From Deltaproteobacteria bacterium (GTDB lineage: Bacteria > Desulfobacterota > BSN033 > UBA1163), in the NCBI GenBank assembly GCA_016875195.1, contig VGRY01000001.1, positions 1-64,000 of the forward strand: 64,000 nt of DNA. The letters run 5' to 3'. The notes below the pieces were generated by a model. It saw only the letters and a program-made list of their open reading frames with translations. It did not search any database and had not been told where the DNA came from. Position 1 is the stretch's first letter; every line of letters begins with the position of its first letter. Shown here piece after piece: positions 39,357 through 52,655 of the stretch. A program made the translations under genes and the position numbers.

Positions 39357-39935
39357 CTACCTCAATCCGTCCTCTTTCTTGGCTTCTTCTTTTTTCAGGC
39401 CGCCAATGCGTGGATGAGGTCTGCCTGAATCCGTGACTACGATGGCAACGAGGATCTCATCAGACCGTGGGGCATCCGGAACTCTCACGGTCATGGCATC
39501 GAAGTGAGTGCGGACAAAGGCCGCATCTTTGTAATGGAGCGGCACATCGATCTCTGTTCCCGGTCCCCCCATCTTTTTAGCTGATGGAATAATGGCTTTT
39601 CCACTGCCGACAGCTTCCCTCAATGGCGTACCGAGTTTGGGGTGAAGGATGGCTGCAGCGTGTTCAAGCTCCCCATCTCCCCCGACGATCGCAGCCTTCC
39701 CATAACTCTCCGCCTTCGCGGGAGCTATCTTTAACGCCTCAACCGCCTTCTTTCCCAATATCCCACCCAGCGCCTCACCGATGTCGATCAGTTCATCCAA
39801 TTTCTCTACATACTTCCCTGCAAAGGGATTCTTGATCACGGCTACAGCAGCCGCTTTCCGGGTCGGAGGATCAACCTTCTTTCCCCCTTCCACAACCGTC
39901 TCTTCCACAATGGTGACATATTTTCGGACTTCCAT
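39357..39935 (-). CDS. Amino-acid-synthesis (AA_synth, PF06684) family protein
   Basis: 192 residues with the AA_synth family pattern: MEVRKYVTIVEETVVEGG, AVAVIKNPFAG, GEALGGILGKKA, SYGKAAIVGGDGELEHAAAI and HYKDAAFVRTHFDAM. The biochemical role is unknown. The start at 39935 has GGAGG eight bases upstream and is preferred to the ATG at 39953, which overlaps that site. It is the last gene of the probable nicotinate operon; spacing to the previous gene is a ~95-bp repeat. A role in ring-opening, amide handling or a side product is possible but not shown. Confidence 0.82.
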   Translation of the reverse strand: MEVRKYVTIVEETVVEGGKKVDPPTRKAAAVAVIKNPFAGKYVEKLDELIDIGEALGGILGKKAVEALKIAPAKAESYGKAAIVGGDGELEHAAAILHPKLGTPLREAVGSGKAIIPSAKKMGGPGTEIDVPLHYKDAAFVRTHFDAMTVRVPDAPRSDEILVAIVVTDSGRPHPRIGGLKKEEAKKEDGLR

Positions 39936-39959
39936 TTTTTCATTCCTCCCCATAGTATA

Positions 39960-40026
39960 TTAAATTTCAGATTTTAGATTTCAAATTTTTCCCTTATCCA
40001 ATTTGCGATAAGAAATTTGCAATTTG
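39960..40026. repeat. AT-rich word-array palindrome
   Basis: TTTCAGATTTTAGATTTCAAATTT is mirrored by AAATTTGCAATTTGAAATC. It fills the spacer between the last two operon genes. Confidence 0.45.
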
Positions 40027-40029
40027 AAA

Positions 40030-40914
40030 TCAAATAATTTTCTTTAAACAATGTTCTATTGAATCTGTCCAGACAACTTTTCCTTGTAGAGCGATTAAGG
40101 CTCCGTGAATCAATCCTTTCTGTTGGATCGTACATGCCTTTGCAAGACCGTTGTCCAATGCCTCGTCAATTTTTTCCTGGGCCAATCTTCCTACCTTAAC
40201 AGTGACCCATTCGCCGGTAATATCCGTATTGGGATATATTCTCTCGGCAAGAGTTCTGGAGATATTCGGATCATTCACATTGGTGAAATTTCCGATGACG
40301 GTCGCTGCAGCATCGGCAAGGGAGACGTTCTCGGCAAGTACTGTTGCTGCCGAAGCAATGCCTTTGGTGAAACTCCTCCCCCCCAGACCGCTTGTCGCCA
40401 CTCCCCCTATTCCCATGGTTGAATCGATTGAAATAAGGTAACTAGGTTCTTTTGCAGTGATCTCTGTTTTGACTCCTACTTTGGCCACCTCCCCTTCCCT
40501 TATTCGGATAGCAATATCCCCTCCATTGTCCACGATGACCTTTGTCCCACCCCTGCTGAAGATAAAATCAGCAACCATCTCAGAGGTTGTTCCTGCAACC
40601 GCAGCAAGAGGCGTTAAATCCGTTTCTCCGACCTGCTGAGTTACTCGAATCATTCTTCGAACAATCTCAGGGTAAATATCTTTTATCTCCAGGGTCAGGC
40701 TTTTACTCTTTATAATAGATAGGCATTTCGACAGATCGTCGAGCAAACCCATGGCAAAATGAGCCCCCTCTTCCGCTAATTTTGGAAGAGGCTCTCCATG
40801 TTCAGAGACAGAGATGAACATCCGCATTGGACCATAGTCCAGAAGGATGGTTCCATTGGGCAAGGTTTGGATAAAGTTGCTATTTTGCAACCTCTGTACC
40901 GCTTTCGTTGTCAT
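40030..40914 (-). CDS. UPF0280 (ApbE-like) family protein
   Basis: 294 residues. The UPF0280 pattern is clear: GPMRMFISV, TPLAAVAGTTSEMVADF, VDNGGDIAI, IGGVATSGLGGRSFTKGIASAATV and ADAAATVIGNF. The family is related to ApbE flavin transferases (NGGDI and the T-fold-like core). It lies directly behind the 6-hydroxynicotinate reductase gene, an enzyme reported to carry covalent flavin in Eubacterium barkeri, so a flavin-attachment role is an attractive inference. The ATG at 40914 follows an in-frame TTG and lacks a clear ribosome-binding site. Confidence 0.85.
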   Translation of the reverse strand: MTTKAVQRLQNSNFIQTLPNGTILLDYGPMRMFISVSEHGEPLPKLAEEGAHFAMGLLDDLSKCLSIIKSKSLTLEIKDIYPEIVRRMIRVTQQVGETDLTPLAAVAGTTSEMVADFIFSRGGTKVIVDNGGDIAIRIREGEVAKVGVKTEITAKEPSYLISIDSTMGIGGVATSGLGGRSFTKGIASAATVLAENVSLADAAATVIGNFTNVNDPNISRTLAERIYPNTDITGEWVTVKVGRLAQEKIDEALDNGLAKACTIQQKGLIHGALIALQGKVVWTDSIEHCLKKII

Positions 40915-40917
40915 CAA

Positions 40918-41056
40918 TTAAATTCCAATAACCAAATCCCAAATTACAAATAATTACCAATTACCCAATGATCGAATTTCAAAACAAATCTGTTTGGGAC
41001 ATTTGAAATTGGAATTTGGATATTGTTTGGGATTTGGTGCTTGAAAATTGGTGCTT
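40918..41056. repeat. Word-array palindrome (CCAAAT/ATTTGG family)
   Basis: ATTCCAATAACCAAATCCCAAATTAC on the left; GAAATTGGAATTTGGATATTGTTTGGGATTTGG on the right. Relatives are at 43896-44088 and 58985-59110. Confidence 0.6.
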
Positions 41057-41060
41057 CTTT

Positions 41061-42581
41061 CTATCTCTGCAACACTTCTTCCAATTTCCGAATTGCCTCT
41101 TTATGTCCTCCTATCTCCTGATACTCTTCCAATCTCATCGTATATTCGAGAGGGACAACCGTCGCAGGGGTGGGGACATAAGTGAATGCCCTCACCATCA
41201 CCTTCTCCACGTCAACCAGGAAAGTGATTCCGCCTCCGGGTAGAATATAGGTCGGCGCTCCTCCCACGGTCAGCCTCGCCCGATTCTGATGAATGGCTTG
41301 ATTCAATCTCACTGGAATTTTTGTCACTCCTGCCCTGGCGCTTCCACCTGCACCACCCACATAGATAGCCGAAACCCTCGACGGCTGGCAGTTAGAAGCC
41401 ATCATATCGATTGCCCTTTTTGCTGTGGGCGTTAAATCCACATGAACAAATTTACCTTTCTCATTTAGACGAAACATCGCTGCCCGTTCTGCGGTTGTCT
41501 CTGTGATGAGGACGGTCATGCCGGGTTTTGAGATCTTTGGATCAAAATCCTCGATAATTTCGATTGGGCTCTCGATAGGCGTCCCGCCCCATCCCTTACC
41601 ATGTTCACCAAAGTATCGGCCAGGAGTGGACCGCCTTGCCCTCAACTTTAAACCGCTATATTTTGCACCCAATTCTCTGCCGGCAGCGTGTTCCGTGAAT
41701 TGCCCGATGAGATGGGAATCAAGAACAACCACCTCATCTGCTGCATCCAGGTAATACCTTCCGAAGAGTCCCATGGAGGCACTGCCGCAACCGACCCTCA
41801 TCCTGGTACCTGTTTCGCCATTGATAATAGGAGCCTTCCCCACCTGAAGAGCTATCTCAGCTCCATCTTCTACTTTGAGACGCACTTCTCTCCGGTTAGC
41901 GATATTGACAATCAGTTTGGCAACGGTAAGACCCTCCTCGCCGGTGAGCAGATTGACTCCCCCAAGCGAGAGAATCTTAGAGCCATACTCCTCTGTGCAA
42001 AGATGGCCGACCCTCTTCTTTCCAATGAGAACTGGAGCGCCTTCTTTACCAACATTTATATCCGTGTCGATCTTCACCTTGACGCCGCTGTAGCTCATGG
42101 GAGCTTCGGTCACTACGGTGACAACATCTATTCCATCCACTTTAGACTGGACGATATAGGGAGCAGGTTTGGTATCGGGGTAAGTGGTCCCGGCGCCGAT
42201 GCCAGTGATCAATGGTTTTCGGATGGCTTCTTCGTGATCCGAGCCTATGATCTCCCTGACATCTTCATAAGATTGAAGCGGGATATTCCGGATGAGCACC
42301 CCATCCTGATTGACGAATCGCTGACAGGCCCCTGTGTTTCCAATCTTAATGATGCAATTAATCGGGCATGACGCACATTGAACACTCCCTTTTTCAGGTA
42401 TTGGCTGGGGGGCAATCGCCTCTGTTGGGCAGACCTTTGTGCAGGCTTTACAATCGACACAGATATCGGAGATGGATGCTTTTTTCTTCTTCCCTTTTAC
42501 CTTCTCCAGGGTGATGGCTGAAAGGGGGCAGGTTTCCACGCACAATCCACACCCAATACAGGTCTCCCAATCGACAATCAT
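41061..42581 (-). CDS. hnr: 6-hydroxynicotinate reductase-like Fe-S flavoprotein
   Basis: 506 residues. Two ferredoxin motifs open the protein (CIGCGLCVETCPL at 8-20 and CVDCKACTKVCPT), followed by an extra cysteine set CASCPINC. The remaining ~400 residues have no common redox fold that I can name beyond glycine-rich segments (GIGAGTTYPDTKPAPYI, GCGSASMG, GGAGGSARAG). The architecture and neighbours match Hnr of Eubacterium barkeri, which reduces 6-hydroxynicotinate to 1,4,5,6-tetrahydro-6-oxonicotinate and contains covalent flavin, one 2Fe-2S and two 4Fe-4S clusters. Enamidase lies immediately upstream and the nicotinate dehydrogenase genes beyond it. Confidence 0.83.
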   Translation of the reverse strand: MIVDWETCIGCGLCVETCPLSAITLEKVKGKKKKASISDICVDCKACTKVCPTEAIAPQPIPEKGSVQCASCPINCIIKIGNTGACQRFVNQDGVLIRNIPLQSYEDVREIIGSDHEEAIRKPLITGIGAGTTYPDTKPAPYIVQSKVDGIDVVTVVTEAPMSYSGVKVKIDTDINVGKEGAPVLIGKKRVGHLCTEEYGSKILSLGGVNLLTGEEGLTVAKLIVNIANRREVRLKVEDGAEIALQVGKAPIINGETGTRMRVGCGSASMGLFGRYYLDAADEVVVLDSHLIGQFTEHAAGRELGAKYSGLKLRARRSTPGRYFGEHGKGWGGTPIESPIEIIEDFDPKISKPGMTVLITETTAERAAMFRLNEKGKFVHVDLTPTAKRAIDMMASNCQPSRVSAIYVGGAGGSARAGVTKIPVRLNQAIHQNRARLTVGGAPTYILPGGGITFLVDVEKVMVRAFTYVPTPATVVPLEYTMRLEEYQEIGGHKEAIRKLEEVLQR

Positions 42582-42595
42582 GGTTTTAATCCCTC

Positions 42596-42712
42596 TTAGG
42601 GTTCAAGGATTCGAGGGTTCTTGGGTTCAAGGAATAAAAAATATTTTGTATTAATCCCATTGCTTGTAAGTTCTTTGCTTGACCCCTTGAATCCTTGACC
42701 CCTTGGCCCCTG
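42596..42712. repeat. Word-array palindrome (CTTGAACCC family)
   Basis: GGGTTCAAGGATTCGAGGG and TTGGGTTCAAGG on the left; CTTGACCCCTTGAATCCTTGACCCCTTGG on the right. It separates enamidase from hnr. Confidence 0.6.
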
Positions 42713-42715
42713 TTA

Positions 42716-43882
42716 TTACAGCTTACTCGTTACGATTTTTCGATTGGGGGGCGGGGTGTTGCGGCTCACCCCAATCTTCATCTGGCCATCGATCAAAACA
42801 GCCGCAATCCCCGGGATGTCACCAGCCTCAATGGCGGAAAGCGCATCTTTACCCACCGAACCAATAGGAGCATCCATAATGACCAGGTCTGCCTCCTTGC
42901 CAACCCCAATGATACCCCTGTTCAATTTAAAAACCTTTGCCGTATTGCCAGTTGCCATGGCAATGGCTTCCTCTGCTTTCACATCGCAAAGGGAAGCAAG
43001 GAAGTTGATGACTCTTAGAATTCCCAGGGGAATCACGCCAGTTCCCGAGGGAGCATCGTTTCCAATGATGATTCGGGGATAGGCTTTTAACTCTTTTACG
43101 ATCTTCATCACATCCACAATCATCTTCGAGTTGCCACAGTGGGAAATCTCCAGGGTCATAGATGTCTTTCGAATCAACTTTTCTGCTTCTGCAAGGGATA
43201 CGGCAGTGGGACCTCCATTGATATGGGAGACAATATCCGGATCGGTTGCGATCACATCATCAGCGGGAACCGTTGAACTTCCGGGAATCGAAGTTCCTCC
43301 GGTATGCATCATCACCACCATCCCGTACCTCTTCGCCCACTTGACCATAGGCGCAGCCTCTTTGGGACTCTTGACGCTGCCCAACCCGATCTCTGCCACC
43401 ACTTTCACGCCTTCTCTTGCCAACTCTTCAAAATCCTTCTCCTGGAGGCCTGACTCAAGGATGATGCTTCCACCCAGCACTTTCACACCCGAGGGCCTGG
43501 CGCTGGCAAAAGATTTGGCAGCGAGAATGGCAAGGGCCTTTGTCCCGGCCACATCCTTAGGCCTGCCCGGAAGGTGAACCTCTCCCGCCGAAATGGCAGT
43601 GGTCACTCCTCCGTGAAGAGATGACTCGATGAAGTCAATCATCTTCTGTCTTGGTGTGAAGTCTCCGAGAACAGGGTGGCAGTGGGAATCGATCAATCCT
43701 GGGGTTACTGTCATCCCTCCGGCATCGATCACCTGCTCAACCCCTATTTTATCGAAATCACTCTCTTGGCCTATTGCTTGAATCAACCCTCCCTCAATGA
43801 TCAAGGCATCCGCATTCAAGAGAGGATTAGAAATGTCTCCGGAAACCAGAGTCCCAATATTTTTAATCATCAATTTTCCCAT
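42716..43882 (-). CDS. ena: Enamidase (amidohydrolase family)
   Basis: 388 residues. It hydrolyses 1,4,5,6-tetrahydro-6-oxonicotinate to ammonia and 2-formylglutarate. Diagnostic blocks are LIDSHCHP (metal HxH), ESSLHGGVTTAISAGEVHLPG, MMHTGGTSIPGSST, SHINGGPTAVS, GNDAPSGTGVIPLGILR and SRNTPPPNRK; these correspond closely to what I recall of E. barkeri enamidase, an Fe-Zn enzyme. Length is as expected. GGAGG precedes the ATG at 43882. It sits between the MoCo subunit and hnr genes, in pathway order on the minus strand. Confidence 0.92.
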   Translation of the reverse strand: MGKLMIKNIGTLVSGDISNPLLNADALIIEGGLIQAIGQESDFDKIGVEQVIDAGGMTVTPGLIDSHCHPVLGDFTPRQKMIDFIESSLHGGVTTAISAGEVHLPGRPKDVAGTKALAILAAKSFASARPSGVKVLGGSIILESGLQEKDFEELAREGVKVVAEIGLGSVKSPKEAAPMVKWAKRYGMVVMMHTGGTSIPGSSTVPADDVIATDPDIVSHINGGPTAVSLAEAEKLIRKTSMTLEISHCGNSKMIVDVMKIVKELKAYPRIIIGNDAPSGTGVIPLGILRVINFLASLCDVKAEEAIAMATGNTAKVFKLNRGIIGVGKEADLVIMDAPIGSVGKDALSAIEAGDIPGIAAVLIDGQMKIGVSRNTPPPNRKIVTSKL

Positions 43883-43895
43883 GTGAACCTCCTAA

Positions 43896-44088
43896 TAAAA
43901 AGTTCCAATAACCAAATTCCAAGCTCCAAATAATAACCAATGACCAATAACTCAATCACCAAAACCCTCTCACTTTTATCCTCTCCCCCGTACTCGGGGG
44001 AGAGGGGAGGAGGAGGGGTATATTATGTTTTGGATATTGGTGATTGGAATTTATTTGGTTATTGGTGCTTGGTGTTTGGAATTTTCAT
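43896..44088. repeat. Word-array palindrome (CCAAAT/ATTTGG family) running into a coding end
   Basis: TTCCAATAACCAAATTCCAAGC on the left and TTGGTGATTGGAATTTATTTGG and TATTGGTGCTTGGTG on the right, with a CTCTCCCCCG/CGGGGGAGAG hairpin between them. The right arm overlaps the last codons of the molybdopterin subunit gene (44051-46321). Confidence 0.6.
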
Positions 44089-46321
44089 TCTTCCCCTTTC
44101 GGACTGCCTCCAGCACCCTCTCCAGATTCGCAGGCAGAGAATATATTCTTTCCCCAATGGCATCTGCAATAGCATTCAAAATGGCCGGCGCACAGGGAAT
44201 GAGGGCCGGCTCTCCAACTCCCTTCGCTCCAAACGGACCGCTGGGTTCCCGTTCTTCAACAAGAATTGGAATCACCTCCGGAATATCTCTCGATGTCGGG
44301 ATGAGGTAGTCCACAAAGGAGGTTGTCTTTTCCGGGATATATTCTTCCATCAAAGCAAATCCCATTCCCATGGCAACCCCGCCGATGATCTGGCCGACCA
44401 CATTTCTCGGATGGATCGCTCTTCCAACATCGTGGCATGCCACCACACGGATCACCCTCACCTTTCCTGTCTCTGTATCCACCTCCACCTCTGCGAGATG
44501 AGTGGCAAAACCATAAGTGGCATAAGGCGCCCCCTGCCCTGTCTTTGGATCAAGTTTTGTTGTCTCGGGATCAAAGCTTCCTTCACCTCTGATCACCTTC
44601 TGGCTTCTCCTTGCAATTTCCCTGAAGGGGATAGAAATACAGAGTTTCTTTCGATGTTTCACCTCTCCATTCTCAACAAAAAGATCCTCTTCATCTTCAC
44701 AAAGAAGAGAAGCTGCCTCTTTCAGAATCCCTTGTTTCAAATTTTTTATAGCCTGAAGGATGGCATTGCCGGAGATATAAGTTTGACGGCTTGCCGAAGT
44801 GGCTCCCGTATCGGTGGTCAGGGCGGTATCCGCCCGGATGAGCCCGATCTCTTCCAATGGAACTCCGAGCGACTCAGAAGCAATCTGAAGAAGCGCCGTA
44901 TCGGACCCCTGCCCAATATCTGCAGTACCTACAAAAAGGCGAACCTCCCCATCTGGATCGATCTCGATCTGTCCGGTCGAGGGATTGGCAATTCCCGTAT
45001 TGCCGATCCCGTACCACATGGAGCCAATTCCAATGCCCCTCCGAATGTAAAGTTTTTCTGGATCGTTCCTGGAAAAGGTTATTTGATCCCTCCGCTCTTT
45101 CACCTTTCTTAATGTCTCACCAATCCCAACGCTTGCCATCAGGGTCTGTCCCGTGGCTGTTTCTGAACCCGGGATCAATACATTCTTAAGCCGGATTTCA
45201 ATCGGATCCATACCAAGGGCTTGTGCAAGGAGATCCATTTGAGATTCATGAGCAAAAGCCATCTGGGGAACGCCAAACCCCCGCATGGCGCCTGACCAGG
45301 GATTATTCGTATAAGCCATCCGGCTCTTCACCTTCACATTGAGAATCTCATAGGGACCTGTCGCATGAACTGCAGAACGAATTCCCACCGTAGCGCCATA
45401 AGAAGCATACGCTCCTGTGTCGCCCAAAATTTCAACTTCAACCGCGGTCAATTTCCCGTCTCTCTTTGCGCCACTCTTATATTTTATCTTTAACGGGTGG
45501 CGTTTTGAGATCACCTGAAAAACCTCTTCGCGTGAATAAACAATCCTCACCGGCCTCTTCAGATGAAAAGTCGCAAGGGCTAACAGGCATTGGATCGTGA
45601 TATCGAGCCTTCCCCCAAATCCCCCTCCAGTGACAGACTGGATGATCCTCACCCTTTCCAGGGGAAGGTCGAGAAAAGCAGCCACTTCTTTTTGATCGTA
45701 ATGGACATTCTGCGTGGGGCAGACCACGGTCACCCTTCCCTCTTCATCAAGATAGGAAACGCCTGCGTCCGGCTCCATATAGGCATGGTCCACCCAGGTC
45801 GTTTCATAGGTTTCCTCGACGATGACATCTGCGTCTTTAAACCCTGCATGGGCATCGCCTTTGAGGACATTAAATTCGATGAGTAGATTACCGTTTGGAT
45901 GAATCAGGGGGGCATGGGGTTTGAGTGCCTCTTCGGGGTCGTTTACAGAAGGAAGATTTTCATACAGGATAATGACTTTCTTTGCCGCCTCTTCCGCAGC
46001 TTCTTCTGTTTTTGCCACAACAAGCGCCACAGGATCACCGATATACCTCACCCGGTCTCCCGCCAGAACAGATTGATCCTTTGTAATCGTCCCGACCATT
46101 TTTTTCCCGGGGATATCGGCGACTGTGAACACTCTTACAAAACCCTCTACCGCAGCGGCTTCTCCTGTTTCGATCTTTAAGACTTTGGCATGAGGTTTCG
46201 GGCTTCGAACAACTTTCAAATGAAGGGGATCGTTAGCGGAAAGATCCGCCCCATATTTTGCCTGGCCCAAAACTTTCTCCAGTGTATCTACTTTCGGAAT
46301 TTCAATTCCAATCTGATTCAT
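44051..46321 (-). CDS. Nicotinate dehydrogenase-like molybdopterin subunit (xanthine dehydrogenase family)
   Basis: 756 residues in one chain covering both halves of the molybdenum-cofactor subunit; E. barkeri splits this into NdhL and NdhM. Cofactor segments visible are VTGGGFGGR, GAMRGFGVPQ, GTADIGQGSDT and GAKGVGEPA, whose glutamate is the usual catalytic base. The CoxL-type AYRCSFR loop is absent. It should hydroxylate nicotinate at C6 with water as oxygen donor. Its ATG directly follows the stop of the FAD-subunit gene (TAAATG). The last ~12 residues (NSKHQAPITK) are encoded by the intergenic word repeat. Confidence 0.87.
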   Translation of the reverse strand: MNQIGIEIPKVDTLEKVLGQAKYGADLSANDPLHLKVVRSPKPHAKVLKIETGEAAAVEGFVRVFTVADIPGKKMVGTITKDQSVLAGDRVRYIGDPVALVVAKTEEAAEEAAKKVIILYENLPSVNDPEEALKPHAPLIHPNGNLLIEFNVLKGDAHAGFKDADVIVEETYETTWVDHAYMEPDAGVSYLDEEGRVTVVCPTQNVHYDQKEVAAFLDLPLERVRIIQSVTGGGFGGRLDITIQCLLALATFHLKRPVRIVYSREEVFQVISKRHPLKIKYKSGAKRDGKLTAVEVEILGDTGAYASYGATVGIRSAVHATGPYEILNVKVKSRMAYTNNPWSGAMRGFGVPQMAFAHESQMDLLAQALGMDPIEIRLKNVLIPGSETATGQTLMASVGIGETLRKVKERRDQITFSRNDPEKLYIRRGIGIGSMWYGIGNTGIANPSTGQIEIDPDGEVRLFVGTADIGQGSDTALLQIASESLGVPLEEIGLIRADTALTTDTGATSASRQTYISGNAILQAIKNLKQGILKEAASLLCEDEEDLFVENGEVKHRKKLCISIPFREIARRSQKVIRGEGSFDPETTKLDPKTGQGAPYATYGFATHLAEVEVDTETGKVRVIRVVACHDVGRAIHPRNVVGQIIGGVAMGMGFALMEEYIPEKTTSFVDYLIPTSRDIPEVIPILVEEREPSGPFGAKGVGEPALIPCAPAILNAIADAIGERIYSLPANLERVLEAVRKGKNENSKHQAPITK

Positions 46322-47179
46322 TTATCCTGCCAATGCCAATCTTATCGCCCTCACAAACAGGGCCTCTACCACAGGTGCTTTATAGAAAGTGGAATGTCTT
46401 ACTCCACTTCTGTTGATCATCGCCTCGGACACTTTTTGTGAGGCTGTTCTTAACAACACTTCATCAGGAAATTTACCTATTAAAAATTTTTCAACCTCTT
46501 CCAGTCGTTGATGGATCGGCAAAACAGCTCCCGGTGCAATCCGTATATCCCTGATCCTACCCCCCTCCATCCGGGCAAGAAGGGCCACACTTATTCTTGT
46601 GATAGCCATAGCCTCTCTTCTGGCCAACCGAACAAAACCAGTTCTCATATCCGTGGAAAGTTTTTCAAAAGAGATTCGAGCTAAGATTTCATGAGGTTGC
46701 AGGGCCGTCTCATAGGGCCCTCGAATGAGGTCGGCCACGGAGACTTCTCGCTCACCCTGTTGGGACACAACCGTTCCAGTGGCATTTAGTACCAGCAAAG
46801 GGGGAAGGCTATCAGCCGCTGGAGAAGCATTGACGATATTCCCTCCGATCGTTCCAAGGTTTCGGATCTGGGGAGAACCGATTTGAGCGACCGCATCTGA
46901 TAAAATATCTGCGTATTGTCTTACCAGAGGGGAGGAGGCAATCTCTGAATGTGAAACAGCCGCTCCGATGGATAAAACCCCGTCCGACTCTTCAATCCCA
47001 CGGAGTTCCTTCAGATGAGCAATGTCGATGAGTAATGGCGGGGACTGCTCTCCTTGGCGAAGACTGATTACCAGATCCGTCCCTCCGGCAATCACCTTTG
47101 CCTTCCCATCCGCCTCCGAGAGAAAATCACAGGCCTCCTGAAGAGTTTTCGGGATTTTGTAGTCAAATGGAGGAATCAT
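46322..47179 (-). CDS. Nicotinate dehydrogenase-like FAD subunit
   Basis: 285 residues of the CoxM/XdhB FAD-binding family: AGGTDLVISLRQG (FAD), GAAVSHSEIA and NLGTIGGNIVNASPAAD. It passes electrons from the 2Fe-2S subunit to its acceptor, in NdhF of E. barkeri probably NADP+. It has only one cysteine, so it lacks the extra 4Fe-4S cluster of 4-hydroxybenzoyl-CoA reductase HcrB. The ATG at 47179 has no evident ribosome-binding site. It is directly coupled to the MoCo subunit gene. Confidence 0.9.
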   Translation of the reverse strand: MIPPFDYKIPKTLQEACDFLSEADGKAKVIAGGTDLVISLRQGEQSPPLLIDIAHLKELRGIEESDGVLSIGAAVSHSEIASSPLVRQYADILSDAVAQIGSPQIRNLGTIGGNIVNASPAADSLPPLLVLNATGTVVSQQGEREVSVADLIRGPYETALQPHEILARISFEKLSTDMRTGFVRLARREAMAITRISVALLARMEGGRIRDIRIAPGAVLPIHQRLEEVEKFLIGKFPDEVLLRTASQKVSEAMINRSGVRHSTFYKAPVVEALFVRAIRLALAG

Positions 47180-47185
47180 ATAAAA

Positions 47186-47286
47186 TAGTATATCAGGACA
47201 TCAGGTCATCGGGATATCAGGATAAAAGCCTGATATTCTGATACCCTGACATCCTACATCCTGATTACCTGGTCACCTGATCACCT
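47186..47286. repeat. Word-array palindrome (TATCAGG family)
   Basis: ATATCAGGACATCAGGTCATC and GGATATCAGG on the left; CCTGATATTCTGATACCCTGACATCC and CCTGATTACCTGG on the right, between the FAD and 2Fe-2S subunit genes. Confidence 0.6.
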
Positions 47287-47288
47287 TT

Positions 47289-47741
47289 TCATTTTCCTAC
47301 TGCTTCAATCGCTTCAATGATCTGTTGATATCCTGTGCAACGGCAGAGATGGCCGGAGATGGCTTCCTTGATCTCATCTTGAGTAGGATGAGCGTTTCTC
47401 TCTAAAAGAGCTTTAGAAGACATCATTATTCCAGGGGTACAGAATCCACACTGAACTGCCCCATGATCTACAAAGGATTTCTGAAGCGGATGAAGAGCAT
47501 CCTTGCTTCCTAATCCTTCTACAGTTTCAACGCTTCTTCCTTCAACCTTTGGAGCTAAAATAAGGCACGAATTGACAGGGATGTTGTCGAGCAAAACTGT
47601 GCATGCACCGCACTCGCCAATTCCACAGCCTTCTTTCGTTCCAGTCAGCCCCAGTTTCTCCCGTAGAAGTCTCAGCAAAGTCCAATGAGCAGGCGTTTCC
47701 ACCTCTATCATTTTTCCATTCAATGTAAACTTGATTTCCAT
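47289..47741 (-). CDS. Nicotinate dehydrogenase-like 2Fe-2S subunit
   Basis: About 150 residues of the CoxS/XdhC-type double 2Fe-2S family. The plant-ferredoxin cluster is GCGIGECGACTVLL with the distant NSC; the helical-domain cluster is QCGFCTPG and HLCRCTGY. Two electrons pass through it from molybdenum to FAD. The frame is open from 47765, but MEIKFTLNGK at 47741 is the normal family start and has a GAGAA upstream, so I use it; either is possible. Confidence 0.92.
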   Translation of the reverse strand: MEIKFTLNGKMIEVETPAHWTLLRLLREKLGLTGTKEGCGIGECGACTVLLDNIPVNSCLILAPKVEGRSVETVEGLGSKDALHPLQKSFVDHGAVQCGFCTPGIMMSSKALLERNAHPTQDEIKEAISGHLCRCTGYQQIIEAIEAVGK

Positions 47742-47767
47742 TAATTTCTCAATATTAACGGACATGC

Positions 47768-47957
47768 CTAAATCCGAAATCCGAATATCGGGCGAAGCGT
47801 CCTCTTAGGACCAATCCGAAACAAATCCAAATTTTCAAATGACCAAAATTATCAAAACGAACTCTTAGAAATTCGTTTTAATAGATAGAACTATTTAAAT
47901 TTAAAATTTTGGTCATTCGATATTGTTTCGAATTTCGGATTTCGTGCTTCGTATTTC
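47768..47957. repeat. Word-array palindrome (CGAAAT/ATTTCG family)
   Basis: AAATCCGAAATCCGAATATCGGGCG, CCGAAACAAATCC and AATGACCAAAATT on the left; AAAATTTTGGTCATTCG, TTGTTTCGAATTTCGGATTTCG on the right. Confidence 0.6.
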
Positions 47958-49472
47958 TTATTTCTTCGTATATTTCATTGCGAAACCATCATCGAGCGTT
48001 TTGGCTACTCCTTGAAGCGAGGAATGCCAACGACTGATGATCACTTTTTTATCCGTATAGAAATCAATCGCCTCGTTGGCCCTTCCCCGGATATCGCCGA
48101 ACATCGAAATCTTCCGCCCACCCACAGGGAAATAGGCAATGGGGGCTGGAGTCCCGATATTGATTCCCACTTGCCCGACATCGACCAACCGGGCAAACTC
48201 GCGAGCCCAGCCGCCGTTCTCCGTATAGATATTTGCCGTGTGACCATAACGGCTCTGATTGATGATTTCGATGCCTTCCGCAAGATCTTTCACTTTCTTG
48301 AAACAACGGACCGGCCCGAACACCTCTAATTGAAAGATGCGCATCTCAGGTTCTGCCTCAAGAACCGTGGGACCGATAAAGTATCCTTTGGAATATTTAT
48401 CCACTTTTGGATTTCTGCCATCGAGAAGGAGCTTAGCCCCGTCGCTGATTCCCTTATCGACCTCTGCGAGCATCTCATTTAAAGAATCTTTTGAAACAAC
48501 AGGCCCCAGAGTCACCCCTTTCTCCATGCCATAGCCCAGGACCAGTTTTTTGGAAAGGTCGAGGAACTTCTCCTTGGCCCTCTCATAAATCTTCTCAACC
48601 ACCAGCACATTCGATACGGCAAAACATCGCTCCCCCACATGGCCGAAGCAGGAGTCAACGACATTCTGCATCACCTCATCGAGGATGGCATCTTCGGCGA
48701 TCAACACATGATTTTTAGCGCCTCCCTGGCATTGAGCCCTCTTCCCATGATTGATAGCCGTTTTATAGACGCGTTCTCCTACCTCGGATGACCCCACAAA
48801 GGATACTCCAACCGTTCCGGGGTGGGTGACCAGGGCTTCGCCTACTCCACTTCCTGAACCATGAAGAAGGTTAATCACCCCTCTTGGAAACCCGCATTCT
48901 TCGGCAACTTCAATAATTCGTGTAACTGTCATCGGGCAGAGGCGACTCGATTTGACGATCGCTGTATCCCCTGCAGCAAGGGCCCAAACAAAATAGAGGG
49001 CGATCATCGCAGGAAAGTTAAACGGAGGGAGAAACACGAAGGCTCCCAACGGTTCCCGGATATAGACGGTATCGACGCCGGTTCCGACATCCTCAGCGTG
49101 GCTCCCTTTGAGCAATTCCGGTCCTGCACAGGCATGCTCCACATATTCAAGCGCACGGGTGATCTCTCCCCTGGCATCGCTTAAGGTCTTCCCGTTCTCA
49201 TTGACGATCAACTCCGCTATCTCATCCTGATGCTTCTCGAGTTTTTCATGAAAATCGAAAAGAAATTTTGCGCGGCGAGGGGGCGGGGTTCTCCTCCATG
49301 CCCAGAAGGCTTGCTGTGCAACTCTCACTGTCCGGTCGATCTCATCCGGAGTTGTTTCCGGACAAAGAGCAATCACTTCGTCCGTTGCCGGATTTCTGAC
49401 TTCAAGCCACCGATGTGTCTTGGATTCGACCCACTGTCCATTAATAAAATTTTTGAGTTTTCTCACTTCCAT
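47958..49472 (-). CDS. mmsA: CoA-acylating methylmalonate-semialdehyde dehydrogenase-like enzyme
   Basis: 504 residues of the MmsA/IolA aldehyde dehydrogenase group. Seen are NFINGQWVES at the start, PPFNFPAMIALYFVWALA, GGAKNHVLI, and the catalytic cysteine in GHVGERCFAVS. The family oxidises a malonate semialdehyde, loses CO2 and transfers the acyl group to CoA. In this operon the expected aldehyde is 2-formylglutarate, itself a substituted malonate semialdehyde; the same chemistry would give glutaryl-CoA + CO2 + NADH. That is inference. Start at 49472 (MEVRKLKN) with GGAGGGGAG upstream; the 16 codons before it are not conserved-looking. Confidence 0.85.
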   Translation of the reverse strand: MEVRKLKNFINGQWVESKTHRWLEVRNPATDEVIALCPETTPDEIDRTVRVAQQAFWAWRRTPPPRRAKFLFDFHEKLEKHQDEIAELIVNENGKTLSDARGEITRALEYVEHACAGPELLKGSHAEDVGTGVDTVYIREPLGAFVFLPPFNFPAMIALYFVWALAAGDTAIVKSSRLCPMTVTRIIEVAEECGFPRGVINLLHGSGSGVGEALVTHPGTVGVSFVGSSEVGERVYKTAINHGKRAQCQGGAKNHVLIAEDAILDEVMQNVVDSCFGHVGERCFAVSNVLVVEKIYERAKEKFLDLSKKLVLGYGMEKGVTLGPVVSKDSLNEMLAEVDKGISDGAKLLLDGRNPKVDKYSKGYFIGPTVLEAEPEMRIFQLEVFGPVRCFKKVKDLAEGIEIINQSRYGHTANIYTENGGWAREFARLVDVGQVGINIGTPAPIAYFPVGGRKISMFGDIRGRANEAIDFYTDKKVIISRWHSSLQGVAKTLDDGFAMKYTKK

Positions 49473-49505
49473 CGTCACTCCCCTCCACTCAATATGGTTT
49501 GTCTT

Positions 49506-49580
49506 GTAGGGGCAATTCATGAATTGCCCCTACGGTAATTTCGAGATTCGATATTCGAAATTCGGATTTCGAATTTTCAT
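49506..49580. repeat. GTAGGGGCAATTC palindrome plus CGAAAT half array
   Basis: 49506-49533 is a perfect 28-bp palindrome (GTAGGGGCAATTC-AT-GAATTGCCCCTAC). It is followed by TTCGAGATTCGATATTCGAAATTCGG words. Confidence 0.6.
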
Positions 49581-49584
49581 ATAC

Positions 49585-50892
49585 CTACCTTCCCATCATC
49601 GATGGCAGAAAAAGAGCGATCTTTGGGAAAATCGTGATCAGGATCACGATCAGTATCATCGATAGGAGAAAAGGGGCGGCCCCGCGAAAGATCGTCTGCA
49701 TGGGAACGTCCTTCACCACACCCGCAAGCGTATAAACATTCAGCCCCACAGGTGGCGTGATAAGCCCCGCCTCCATCATAATCACGCAGATGACTCCAAA
49801 CCAGATGGGGTCAAAGCCTAACGTCTTGATGACCGGAAAGATGACGGGCATGGTGAGCACCATCATTGAGATCGCATCAAGAAAGCAGCCAAGCATCATA
49901 TAGATCAAGATGATAATGGCAAGGATCAAATACTTGGAAACCTGAAGGCTTGCCATCCAGGATGAGACCGCCATGGGAATGGTCGAAAGGGCGAGAAAAT
50001 AGCTGAACACATTTGCCCCTGCCACTAAGAATAGAACAAGAACAGAGATCCGGGCTGCCTCAAAAAGGGAACTGGACAGATTTCGCAGGGTCAACCTTCT
50101 CTTCAAGAAGATGATGATAAAAAGGGCTAAAGCGCCTATCGCCCCTGCTTCTGTGGGATTGATGAAACCTAAATAGATGCCGCCCATGACGATGAGAAAT
50201 ACCAATACAGTCTCCCAGATTCCTTTCAGGGCCAATAATTTTTCTTTAAAACTGACCGCCTGGGGATTGGAGGGCGCTAAGCTTGGATCCATCTTGACTT
50301 TAAAAAGAATGATGGCAATAAAAGCAAGGGAAAGGAGAATTCCGGGAACAATCCCTGAGATCAAAAGCTTTCCAATGGATTGTTCGGTCAACATCCCATA
50401 GACCACAAAACCCAAACTGGGTGGAATGAGAAAGCTTAGCGTTCCGCCAGCGGCCACTGCGCCCACGGCTAATCTGGGAGAGTAGTTAAATCGTCTCATC
50501 TCCGGAATGGCAATCGTTCCCATGGCGGCAGAAGCGGCTACGGAGGAACCGCTCAGAGCCGCAAAAAAGGCACAGGCGGTGATCGTGGCAATTCCCAGTC
50601 CACCCGGCATTCTCCTGAACCATTTATCAAAGGTGGCGTAAAGTTCTCGAGTGATGCCTGCATTTCCTGCAAATCCTCCCATCAGGATGAAGAGAGGAAT
50701 GATGGTATAGGGATAGAAGGAGGCTGTTTCATACACGGTTTTGGCAATCACAGGGAGAGCTGCATTGACCGAGGCTAAATAACTGATACCCAGAAATCCA
50801 ACTAACATCATGACAAAGGCTATGGGCATCCCTAAGAAGAGGAGAAAGACCAGAAGAATGCTTCCAAGAATACCGACCGTAATCGGGCTCAT
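49585..50892 (-). CDS. dctM: TRAP transporter large permease (DctM type)
   Basis: 435 residues with about 12 hydrophobic segments; typical TRAP-M blocks are GMPIAFVMMLVGFLG, GGFAGNAGITRELY, GGLGIATITACAFFAALSGSSVAASAAMG and INPTEAGAIGALA. It imports a carboxylate with sodium or proton. It overlaps dctQ by four bases and is followed by mmsA, so the likely cargo is the operon substrate, nicotinate or a related acid. Confidence 0.93.
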   Translation of the reverse strand: MSPITVGILGSILLVFLLFLGMPIAFVMMLVGFLGISYLASVNAALPVIAKTVYETASFYPYTIIPLFILMGGFAGNAGITRELYATFDKWFRRMPGGLGIATITACAFFAALSGSSVAASAAMGTIAIPEMRRFNYSPRLAVGAVAAGGTLSFLIPPSLGFVVYGMLTEQSIGKLLISGIVPGILLSLAFIAIILFKVKMDPSLAPSNPQAVSFKEKLLALKGIWETVLVFLIVMGGIYLGFINPTEAGAIGALALFIIIFLKRRLTLRNLSSSLFEAARISVLVLFLVAGANVFSYFLALSTIPMAVSSWMASLQVSKYLILAIIILIYMMLGCFLDAISMMVLTMPVIFPVIKTLGFDPIWFGVICVIMMEAGLITPPVGLNVYTLAGVVKDVPMQTIFRGAAPFLLSMILIVILITIFPKIALFLPSMMGR

Positions 50893-51371
50893 GTTGACCT
50901 CCCTTTCAATTTCCCGAACGAATCAATCAGGTCGAGAAGGAGTTCCAGCCAAAGGAGAAACCCTCCAATGGCAACGAGCAACCGAAAAGGGTACTGGGGA
51001 ATTCGTAACATGTCTGAGACGGTCCGTTCCCGAATCCCCTCGATCCAACCCTGCCAGATAACAATCGAAATGATGAAGAGGCTGAGTAAAAGAGTAAGGA
51101 TGCTGCAGAGCGCTTGAAGGCGGGGAGAAAACCTGGAGGTTAAAAAATTGACCCCCACATGTCCCCTCACCTGCTGGGTATACGCCGCCCCAAGCAGGAT
51201 GAAGACAGCCAGGATATATTCGGATAATTCAAAGGCGCCCGGGACCGTCTTTGCGAAAAATTTTCTTCCCACCACATCCACTGTGGTTAGAAGCATCAAC
51301 GGAAGGAGCAAACAGACCCCCGCTCCACACACATAATAATTGATCCGCTGGATCAGATTTTTGAGATTCAT
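50889..51371 (-). CDS. dctQ: TRAP transporter small permease (DctQ type)
   Basis: 160 residues, four hydrophobic segments, with the family pattern DVVGRKFFAKTVPGAFELSEY and QQVRGHVGVNFL. It forms the membrane complex with DctM. The TGAT-type overlap with dctM shows coupling. A GC-rich hairpin separates it from dctP. Confidence 0.92.
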   Translation of the reverse strand: MNLKNLIQRINYYVCGAGVCLLLPLMLLTTVDVVGRKFFAKTVPGAFELSEYILAVFILLGAAYTQQVRGHVGVNFLTSRFSPRLQALCSILTLLLSLFIISIVIWQGWIEGIRERTVSDMLRIPQYPFRLLVAIGGFLLWLELLLDLIDSFGKLKGRST

Positions 51372-51530
51372 GAGTGATTGACCTTCTATCTCTCTCTTCT
51401 CCTAACTCCCCCTTCCCCCTCTCGGTTTCGAGTCGCAACGACTTATCTTAAGAGGGGGAAGATGGATGGGAGCGTTAGATTGGGAGGGAGGGGTTAATTA
51501 CGAAGCTGAGAGACCGTTAACAATATTGAA

Positions 51531-51552
51531 GGGGCGACCTCCATGTCGCCCC
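51531..51552 (-). terminator. Hairpin between dctP and dctQ
   Basis: GGGGCGAC and GTCGCCCC form an 8-bp stem with a 6-base loop. The minus-strand tail (TTCAATATT) is only partly T-rich, so this may be a partial terminator that lets the binding protein be made in excess. Confidence 0.45.
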
Positions 51553-51587
51553 TTCCCTCCATTCCTTGACTCATTCTTTTTCTAATC

Positions 51588-52655
51588 TCAAGCCCACTCC
51601 CTCGGGAAAGCGACCACTTTAACCCCACGTCTCTCGCATTCTTGGTTATACATCCGGACGACCTCTTTTGCAGGAAGTCCTTTCCCTTCGAGATCAGCGA
51701 CCCACTTTCGAGTGACCTCCCTGAAGCCTTCATACCATTTCTCCGCTTCAGCCGAAGGAAGATCATAAAGGGTCACCCCTTTGTCAGTGATCTCTTTCAT
51801 CATGGTCTTGTAAACTTCTCGGTTGAGTCCTCCTGTGGTTTTGAAGGGGTTCTGGCCAGCTGCCTCGATGATCTTCTTCTGATCATCCGGCAATTTTTTC
51901 CAGCTCTCGAGGTTCATGACCACGCCTTCGGTCACACATCCAAAAGTTGCAACGACTCCATGTTTCGCCACTTCATTTAGCTTGAAGGAAAGAAAGATAG
52001 GGGGGCACGTGACAAGACCATCTATTGTCCCAGTCTCCATGGCAAGGTATACATCCCCCAGTGGCATGAAGATCGGCTCGGCCCCAAGAGCCTTAATATA
52101 ATTGGTTTGATGACCACCCGGTGACCTGACTTTCAACCCTTTTGTATCAGCTAAGGAACGGATAGGTTTTTTGGTCCAAAGAAAAGATTGTATGCAGCCA
52201 TTTAACTCCACCACCTTTACGTCTTTGAACTCTCGATTAAGAATCCTTTCATACATCGCATTTCCGATATCCGTCGCCAGATCTTTTCCATCCACCCACG
52301 CCGCCATGGAGAGGACGTCCGAAAGGGGAAAACGTCCCGGCGTCCAAGTTGCTGTGAAATATCCCATGTCTGAGAGGCCTTTGGCCACAATGTCAAAATG
52401 CTCAGGCCCTTTCCCTAATGCTCCGCCAGCATACATGTTGGAGGTAACCTTGCCTCCGCTCTTCTTTTTAATCTCTTCAAGCATAGGTTCCCAAACAGTT
52501 TTGACCTCTCTGCTCATCGGGGCATGCCATGTGCTGAATCGGATATTCGTCGCCTGAGCGTAAGACAATTCATAAATCCCTACGCCGGCTCCCACCGCCA
52601 CACCACCGATAATCGAATTCTTTAAAAATTCCCTTCTCGTCGTTCCTTCGCACAT
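51588..52655 (-). CDS. dctP: TRAP transporter substrate-binding protein (DctP type), Tat-exported
   Basis: 355 residues. The N-terminus TTRREFLKN is a twin-arginine export signal, followed by a hydrophobic GGVAVGAGVGIYEL core, so it should be exported folded. The mature part shows GLKVRSPGGHQTNYIKALGAEPIFMPLGDVYLAMETGTIDG in pieces, including the conserved arginine (KVRSPGG) that binds a substrate carboxylate. It should capture the acid imported by DctQM. AAGGAGG stands eight bases before the ATG. It is the first gene after the promoter at 52726. Confidence 0.93.
   Translation of the reverse strand: MCEGTTRREFLKNSIIGGVAVGAGVGIYELSYAQATNIRFSTWHAPMSREVKTVWEPMLEEIKKKSGGKVTSNMYAGGALGKGPEHFDIVAKGLSDMGYFTATWTPGRFPLSDVLSMAAWVDGKDLATDIGNAMYERILNREFKDVKVVELNGCIQSFLWTKKPIRSLADTKGLKVRSPGGHQTNYIKALGAEPIFMPLGDVYLAMETGTIDGLVTCPPIFLSFKLNEVAKHGVVATFGCVTEGVVMNLESWKKLPDDQKKIIEAAGQNPFKTTGGLNREVYKTMMKEITDKGVTLYDLPSAEAEKWYEGFREVTRKWVADLEGKGLPAKEVVRMYNQECERRGVKVVAFPREWA

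Follow-up and report, generated by a model that had tools for sequence, protein, structure and literature searches.

An aldehyde dehydrogenase related to methylmalonate-semialdehyde dehydrogenase is predicted to carry anaerobic nicotinate breakdown directly to glutaryl-CoA

How could anaerobes without a B12-dependent mutase complete the degradation of nicotinate? This question is raised by a minus-strand operon in a 64,000-nucleotide stretch of DNA (hereafter the window; contig VGRY01000001.1 of assembly GCA_016875195.1) from a Deltaproteobacteria bacterium whose nearest named relatives are labelled Syntrophaceae at NCBI. The operon has the upper steps of nicotinate fermentation in common with Eubacterium barkeri (ndh, hnr, ena, hgd, mgm, mii, dmd), down to 2-formylglutarate, the enamidase product according to PMC9304392. 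In contrast to E. barkeri, the mgm search of the window's genome was negative, and the operon contains a gene for an MmsA-like protein instead. Since 2-formylglutarate is a 2-substituted malonate semialdehyde, the chemistry of methylmalonate-semialdehyde dehydrogenase (MMSDH) would yield glutaryl-CoA, CO2 and NADH. We consider it likely that the operon serves anaerobic nicotinate catabolism and that its MmsA-like enzyme makes glutaryl-CoA from 2-formylglutarate, replacing the B12 branch. The original prediction had proposed this chemistry from the window's sequence; comparative genomics now supports it through three independent kinds of evidence that agree with one another, namely co-occurrence with 6-hydroxynicotinate reductase (HNR), mutual exclusion with mgm, and pocket changes confined to nicotinate-linked subfamilies, so that the ring-opened product probably passes straight to glutaryl-CoA.

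The MmsA-like protein has 504 residues (520 if an in-frame ATG upstream is used as start) and scores 460.2 bits with TIGR01722 (MMSDH), above the curated cut-off of 448.5. We searched for its relatives in 395 genomes from the window's phylum, 59 of which were HNR-positive and 336 HNR-negative. The window's own subfamily, hereafter subfamily A, was found in 14 of the 395 genomes at 57% identity or more (next match, 47%), and all 14 were HNR-positive. A second aldehyde dehydrogenase (ALDH), which occurs at many other HNR loci and is 36-41% identical to the window's protein, defines subfamily B; its top NCBIfam match is MMSDH, with 379.6-391.4 bits in the four members scanned, under 448.5. Subfamily B was present in 36 of the 395 genomes, and 35 of these 36 were HNR-positive. 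Taken together, A or B occurred in 49 of the 59 HNR-positive genomes versus 1 of the 336 HNR-negative ones (Fisher 2.4e-51, uncorrected for relatedness), and the two were never found in one genome. The gene lies on the HNR contig in 40 of the 49 genomes, at a distance of at most 12.2 kb. Furthermore, in a sample of 286 genomes from another phylum, the sole match above 45% came from the genome at the centre of the sample, which has a nicotinate locus.

The MmsA-like gene and the B12 branch exclude each other. Scanning genome contigs with an enamidase alignment gave at least 567 loci, of which the best 80 were searched for the lower genes (hgd, mgm, mii, hmd, dmd) with those of Acetobacterium bakii (L099) as reference; we assigned the names of the reference genes from their order and sequence. 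The MmsA-like gene was present at 29 of the 80 loci, some of them contig-end fragments (e.g. L130, L152), and mgm at 18, with no locus carrying both (Fisher 1.4e-4). Any of mgm, mii or hmd was found at 24 loci, again with no overlap (Fisher 1.7e-6). With the count restricted to the 60 loci that reach 12 kb, 24 had the MmsA-like gene, 22 had B12-branch genes and none had both (p 2.9e-7). In the 59 HNR-positive genomes, only the B12-binding part of the mgm query was matched, at 56.3 bits or less. The original prediction had noted that the later E. barkeri genes are missing beside the operon, and its expectation regarding the mutase held for the rest of the window's genome (187 contigs, completeness 87%), where the sole mgm match was a B12-binding domain at 47.5 bits. 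A complete E. barkeri lower branch elsewhere in this genome was set aside on this partial match, the search having been made for mgm only.

A similar split was observed in a second-phylum sample of 299 genomes, which was centred on Acididesulfobacillus acetoxydans (G422), a genome picked for having the gene. Fourteen of these genomes had an enamidase match. Twelve had an enamidase at 57% identity or more, and nine of them carried mgm and three carried A or B (G422, G423, G552), never both; excluding G422, the split is 9 versus 2. G451 and G460, whose enamidases are only 47% and 43% identical, had neither mgm nor A/B. We also surveyed 140 nicotinate loci (60 MmsA-type, 18 mgm-type and 62 other, some genomes being represented twice). 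Among the neighbours that four or more of the 60 MmsA-type loci have in common, inspected mostly by eye with five clusters scanned, we recognised no alternative enzyme for the 2-formylglutarate step; beyond the core, they comprised transport genes, regulators, nicotinamidase and many antisense open reading frames.

The protein itself combines conserved MMSDH features with a changed pocket. A tree was built from 89 rows, 84 of which differ: 15 A, 35 B and 39 other MMSDH-like sequences, the latter mostly from the window's phylum plus two Protein Data Bank (PDB) chains. Subfamilies A and B each formed a clade in it, with support of 100/100. The B clade contained all B rows of nicotinate loci and four more that lie on other contigs, in G169, G170, G200 and G286. 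A and B together were separated from the 39 other rows with support of 93/98, and we provisionally regard them as sister groups. The canonical MMSDH pocket tryptophan and phenylalanine are absent from the window's protein, which has Y160 and V450 instead. Position 160 (window numbering throughout) is Y in 15/15 A rows, S in 35/35 B rows and W in 39/39 others, and position 450 is V in A, L in B and F in all 39 others. H occupies position 411 in all 50 A and B rows versus N in the 39 others; R464 is found in 50/50 and C275 in 49/50 of the A and B rows, and neither occurs in any of the others. The same pattern was seen in rows outside the original comparison, which comprised seven full-length members, four A and three B (one with M at 450), as well as four non-members that were canonical. 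Window residues 160 and 450 align with Trp177 and Phe465 of ALDH2. Phe465 of ALDH2 is described as a substrate-holding residue in PMC8160307.

R282 and C283 are present in all 89 rows, and R106 in all 50 A and B rows, the others having R in 30 cases and K in nine. In MMSDH, the equivalents of R106 and R282 bind the carboxylate of the substrate. At the site of the hydrolytic glutamate, an ordinary ALDH (L091_11) has E and the window's protein Q249, with Q in 15/15 A rows and N in 35/35 B rows; this residue, Glu268, is described as the general base required for ALDH hydrolysis. The cysteine, the two arginines and the lost glutamate are shared with MMSDH (MmsA/IolA/ALDH6, TIGR01722), whereas A and B differ from it by forming clades of their own with altered pocket residues and, for B, by scoring under the TIGR01722 cut-off.

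The likely next enzyme is a glutaryl-CoA dehydrogenase such as that of Desulfococcus multivorans (3MPI, NF045552), for which the original prediction had suggested a genome-wide search. A glutaryl-CoA-dehydrogenase-like gene is indeed present in the window's genome, on another contig (C3) than the operon, but it scores 461.9-462.6 bits with NF045552, under the curated cut-off of 470. Its top PDB match is 3MPI with 378 bits versus 306 for the next, and it adjoins oah and had of a benzoyl-CoA degradation cluster, both above cut-off (L200, G000:C3, 3263-9672); aromatic acids may therefore be further substrates of the organism. Across 47 named genomes, NF045552 was matched above cut-off in 20 of 29 MmsA-type versus 0 of 18 mgm-type genomes. 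With a threshold of E<=1e-118, it was found in 50 of the 59 HNR-positive genomes, in 43 of the 49 genomes that carry A or B, and, in the second phylum, in 3/3 MmsA-type versus 0/9 mgm-type genomes. This association is partly confounded with phylogeny. Searching the 140 nicotinate loci for glutaryl-CoA dehydrogenase gave only two acyl-CoA dehydrogenase matches of 37-40% identity (L122, L082), indicating that the gene is not, as a rule, part of these operons. An acyl-CoA dehydrogenase at L190 was considered as an alternative and rejected, as it fits other acyl-CoA dehydrogenases better.

Several observations weigh against the conversion of 2-formylglutarate to glutaryl-CoA by subfamilies A and B. 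Subfamily B occurs in one HNR-negative genome (G200, 81% complete), which belongs to a genus with HNR-positive members. Conversely, both A and B are missing from 10 of the 59 HNR-positive genomes. The HNR contig of six (G113, G115, G175, G245, G319, G355) is short or stops next to the operon, which leaves four true exceptions (G012, G114, G241, G358). Of the 60 enamidase loci with a length of 12 kb or more, 14 show neither route. An hgd-like gene of 35-44% identity, from a broad family, occurs at three MmsA-type loci, L134, L147 and L177. Loci and genomes were partly selected by enamidase, some genomes count twice, and the p-values carry no phylogenetic correction. As regards the enzyme, the 93/98 support for A plus B does not exceed the level at which the tool awards a star, and a single phylum supplies most of the non-member rows. 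The nearness of R464 to the substrate is putative. In subfamily B, the equivalent of the NAD-binding Lys192 is serine in 32 of 35 rows (e.g. L044:2835-4319), which suggests a different coenzyme contact. Finally, the window's glutaryl-CoA dehydrogenase candidate falls slightly short of the curated cut-off, as do those of 9 of the 29 MmsA-type named genomes (five at 421-470 bits, four below 390).

Four other explanations were weighed. The one that survives best, though we regard it as unlikely, is that CO2 is lost first, spontaneously or through another protein, and that the MmsA-like protein is an acylating glutarate-semialdehyde dehydrogenase that forms glutaryl-CoA. Beta-aldehyde acids decarboxylate readily according to established chemistry, and in Azorhizobium decarboxylation reportedly comes before oxidation. 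However, both arginines assigned to the carboxylate were retained in each of the 50 rows of A and B, L and V being the corresponding residues of an ordinary ALDH. A substrate without the carboxylate would not need them, and their retention thus speaks against decarboxylation as the first event, even though a route via glutarate has a precedent in Azorhizobium (PMC3511419).

It is even less probable that the operon degrades another N-heterocyclic acid and yields a different 2-substituted malonate semialdehyde. HNR homologues form a broad family, as do molybdenum hydroxylases, and the NCBIfam matches of NdhS, NdhF and NdhLM are all to xanthine-dehydrogenase-type models and under cut-off. Among solved structures, however, the molybdenum subunit is nearest to nicotinate dehydrogenase, 3HRD, and not to an enzyme for another N-heterocycle, a result that the original prediction had named as a possible refutation. 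Chain A of 3HRD is matched with 425.1 bits over residues 7-413 of NdhLM and chain B with 279.7 bits over residues 427-741; the runner-up, 4-hydroxybenzoyl-CoA reductase, reaches 389.4 bits. As the two molybdenum chains match consecutive parts of NdhLM, the window's protein is a single fused chain, unlike the two chains of E. barkeri. With all three subunits present (Mo, Fe-S, FAD) and 3HRD as top match, nicotinate is the predicted substrate. Over the family alignment, the enamidase shows 59% identity with the solved enzyme of E. barkeri, and it has no comparable second family, its match to 2VUN (ENAMIDASE) at E=2.2e-143 being followed by a second-best of only 7.3e-07. Moreover, a nicotinamidase homologue (top PDB match 2WT9) was found at 11 of the 60 MmsA-type loci, at 0 of 18 mgm-type loci and at 5 of 62 other loci.

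We think it very improbable that the MmsA-like protein is a hydrolytic dehydrogenase releasing free glutarate for activation by a CoA-transferase, as in aerobic Azorhizobium. In Azorhizobium caulinodans and Bradyrhizobiaceae, ring reduction and hydrolysis proceed as in the window and carbon reaches the level of glutarate and glutaryl-CoA; the pathway is aerobic and free glutarate is an intermediate, according to PMC3511419, whereas the window's route is predicted to proceed without it. Membership in the ALDH superfamily would also allow hydrolysis. Yet the general-base glutamate is replaced throughout A and B, no CoA-transferase cluster recurs among the clusters present in at least four of the 60 MmsA-type loci, and none of the 5 aerobic plasmid hnr loci examined, out of 26, has an A/B homologue within 14 kb. 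That the gene encodes an ordinary (methyl)malonate-semialdehyde dehydrogenase and is a chance neighbour is barely credible, its score above the TIGR01722 cut-off notwithstanding, given that A and B are nearly confined to HNR-positive genomes, that five positions differ from other MMSDH-like rows, and that a canonical MMSDH (543.1 bits) is encoded separately in the window's genome.

In the pathway that we propose, nicotinate would be imported by a tripartite ATP-independent periplasmic (TRAP) transporter, hydroxylated to 6-hydroxynicotinate by the three-subunit molybdenum hydroxylase, and reduced by HNR to 1,4,5,6-tetrahydro-6-oxonicotinate, which the enamidase would open to 2-formylglutarate and ammonia. 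We infer these upper steps from the presence of close homologues of the E. barkeri enzymes. A dedicated MMSDH subfamily would then convert 2-formylglutarate, CoA and NAD+ to glutaryl-CoA, CO2 and NADH, thereby bypassing the reduction of 2-formylglutarate and the B12-mutase rearrangement. The enzyme retains the MMSDH machinery, with Cys283 as catalytic residue, the pair Arg106/Arg282 to hold the carboxylate that neighbours the aldehyde, and no hydrolytic glutamate. Replacement of the pocket residues that would lie against the methyl group in the usual MMSDH substrate would make room for the carboxyethyl side chain. Glutaryl-CoA would join the glutaryl-CoA/crotonyl-CoA route, which the organism apparently also uses for benzoyl-CoA degradation. 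Sulfate reduction with complete oxidation, considered plausible by the original prediction, is hypothetical for this organism, given the Syntrophaceae label of its nearest named relatives; the MmsA-like row of one of these, Syntrophaceae bacterium UBA2188 (L166), is identical to that of G258, a genome of the window's family.

The records in which A and B members were met carry the labels Thermodesulfobacteriota, Bacillota, Actinomycetes and Armatimonadetes. On the strength of these sequence comparisons, it appears fairly likely that A and B constitute a previously undescribed 2-formylglutarate dehydrogenase family defining a second, B12-independent anaerobic nicotinate pathway in several phyla, which would connect the degradation of vitamin B3 with the glutaryl-CoA metabolism of syntrophs. 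Because a glutarate route for nicotinate is known in aerobic Azorhizobium, the novelty would be limited to the decarboxylating CoA-acylation that a dedicated family related to MMSDH is predicted to perform in one step, and to its replacement of the B12 branch. Among the matches listed by a search of open-licence PMC, no paper tied nicotinate or 6-hydroxynicotinate to MMSDH or glutaryl-CoA. If correct, this pathway would explain how anaerobes without a B12 mutase complete nicotinate degradation, would conserve the oxidation energy as a CoA thioester with no ATP or CoA donor spent, and would assign a role to genes currently named methylmalonate-semialdehyde dehydrogenases. The signature Y/S160, H411, V/L450 and R464 would separate both routes in metagenomes.

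The genes of the operon are listed below. Open reading frames and family matches agree with the order given by the original prediction for the TRAP, MmsA-like, molybdenum hydroxylase, enamidase and HNR-like genes; its gene list was correct for these and overlooked the UPF0280-type and AA_synth genes at the downstream end.

Table. Genes of the predicted nicotinate operon, with window coordinates.
Gene	Coordinates	Strand	Predicted product	Basis
dctP	51588-52655	-	TRAP solute-binding protein, probable nicotinate uptake	PF03480 140.6 bits; NF037995 122.7 bits (cut-off 50)
dctQ	50889-51371	-	TRAP small permease	PF04290 93.2 bits
dctM	49585-50892	-	TRAP large permease	Open reading frame; conserved beside DctQ in relatives
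MmsA-like, subfamily A	47958-49472	-	Predicted CoA-acylating, decarboxylating 2-formylglutarate dehydrogenase (to glutaryl-CoA)	
ndhS	47289-47765	-	Nicotinate dehydrogenase [2Fe-2S] subunit (predicted)	PF01799, PF00111
ndhF	46322-47179	-	Nicotinate dehydrogenase FAD subunit (predicted)	PF00941, PF03450
ndhLM	44051-46321	-	Nicotinate dehydrogenase molybdopterin subunit, L and M fused (predicted)	Best PDB match 3HRD chains A, B
ena	42716-43882	-	Enamidase, tetrahydro-6-oxonicotinate to 2-formylglutarate (predicted)	2VUN E=2.2e-143
hnr	41061-42581	-	6-Hydroxynicotinate reductase-like iron-sulfur protein	Fer4 domains; homologues; adjoins Ena in relatives
UPF0280-type	40030-40917	-	UPF0280-type protein	NF003322 220.5 bits (under cut-off 290); PDB 2O34
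AA_synth	39357-39953	-	AA_synth protein	PF06684 251.9 bits; PDB 2QTP

Pfam and NCBIfam matches of HNR are limited to ferredoxin domains. The protein is 41.7-46.3% identical to proteins annotated Hnr (6-hydroxynicotinate reductase) and is also homologous to the A. bakii HNR; we named it after these annotated homologues and the published cluster, as described in PMC3511419. Within 1.5 kb flanks around HNR, Ena was found at 30/30 loci, a UPF0280 gene at 28/30 and an AA_synth gene at 27/30 (L009-L038, the window's included), a co-conservation that exceeds chance. E. barkeri-type loci have AA_synth and UPF0280 neighbours like the window, and both genes accompany HNR and Ena in both lower-pathway types as well as in the aerobic plasmid loci examined. 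Their presence in both lower-pathway types suggests that they serve the shared upper pathway. The UPF0280 fold is presumably ApbE-like, a fold associated with covalent flavin, and as an idea only, the UPF0280 protein might attach flavin to HNR.

The nicotinamidase homologue would feed nicotinamide into the pathway. One such homologue, encoded within a nicotinate operon (L057:15336-16091, minus strand; 2WT9, E=5.8e-41), has a hydrophobic N-terminus that resembles a signal peptide by eye. Type-B loci are present in two culturable organisms, A. acetoxydans and Dethiosulfatarculus sandiegensis. In A. acetoxydans, the class-B gene (L275, 3126-4235) has an open frame of only about 370 residues, and it may be broken, misassembled or affected by a sequencing error. 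The canonical MMSDH gene of the window's genome lies at L202 (G000:C37, 163-9782) together with a molybdenum-hydroxylase-like gene pair, a GntR-type regulator and TRAP genes, all but the MMSDH being named by eye. In the aerobic plasmid hnr loci examined, the AA_synth gene is often doubled.

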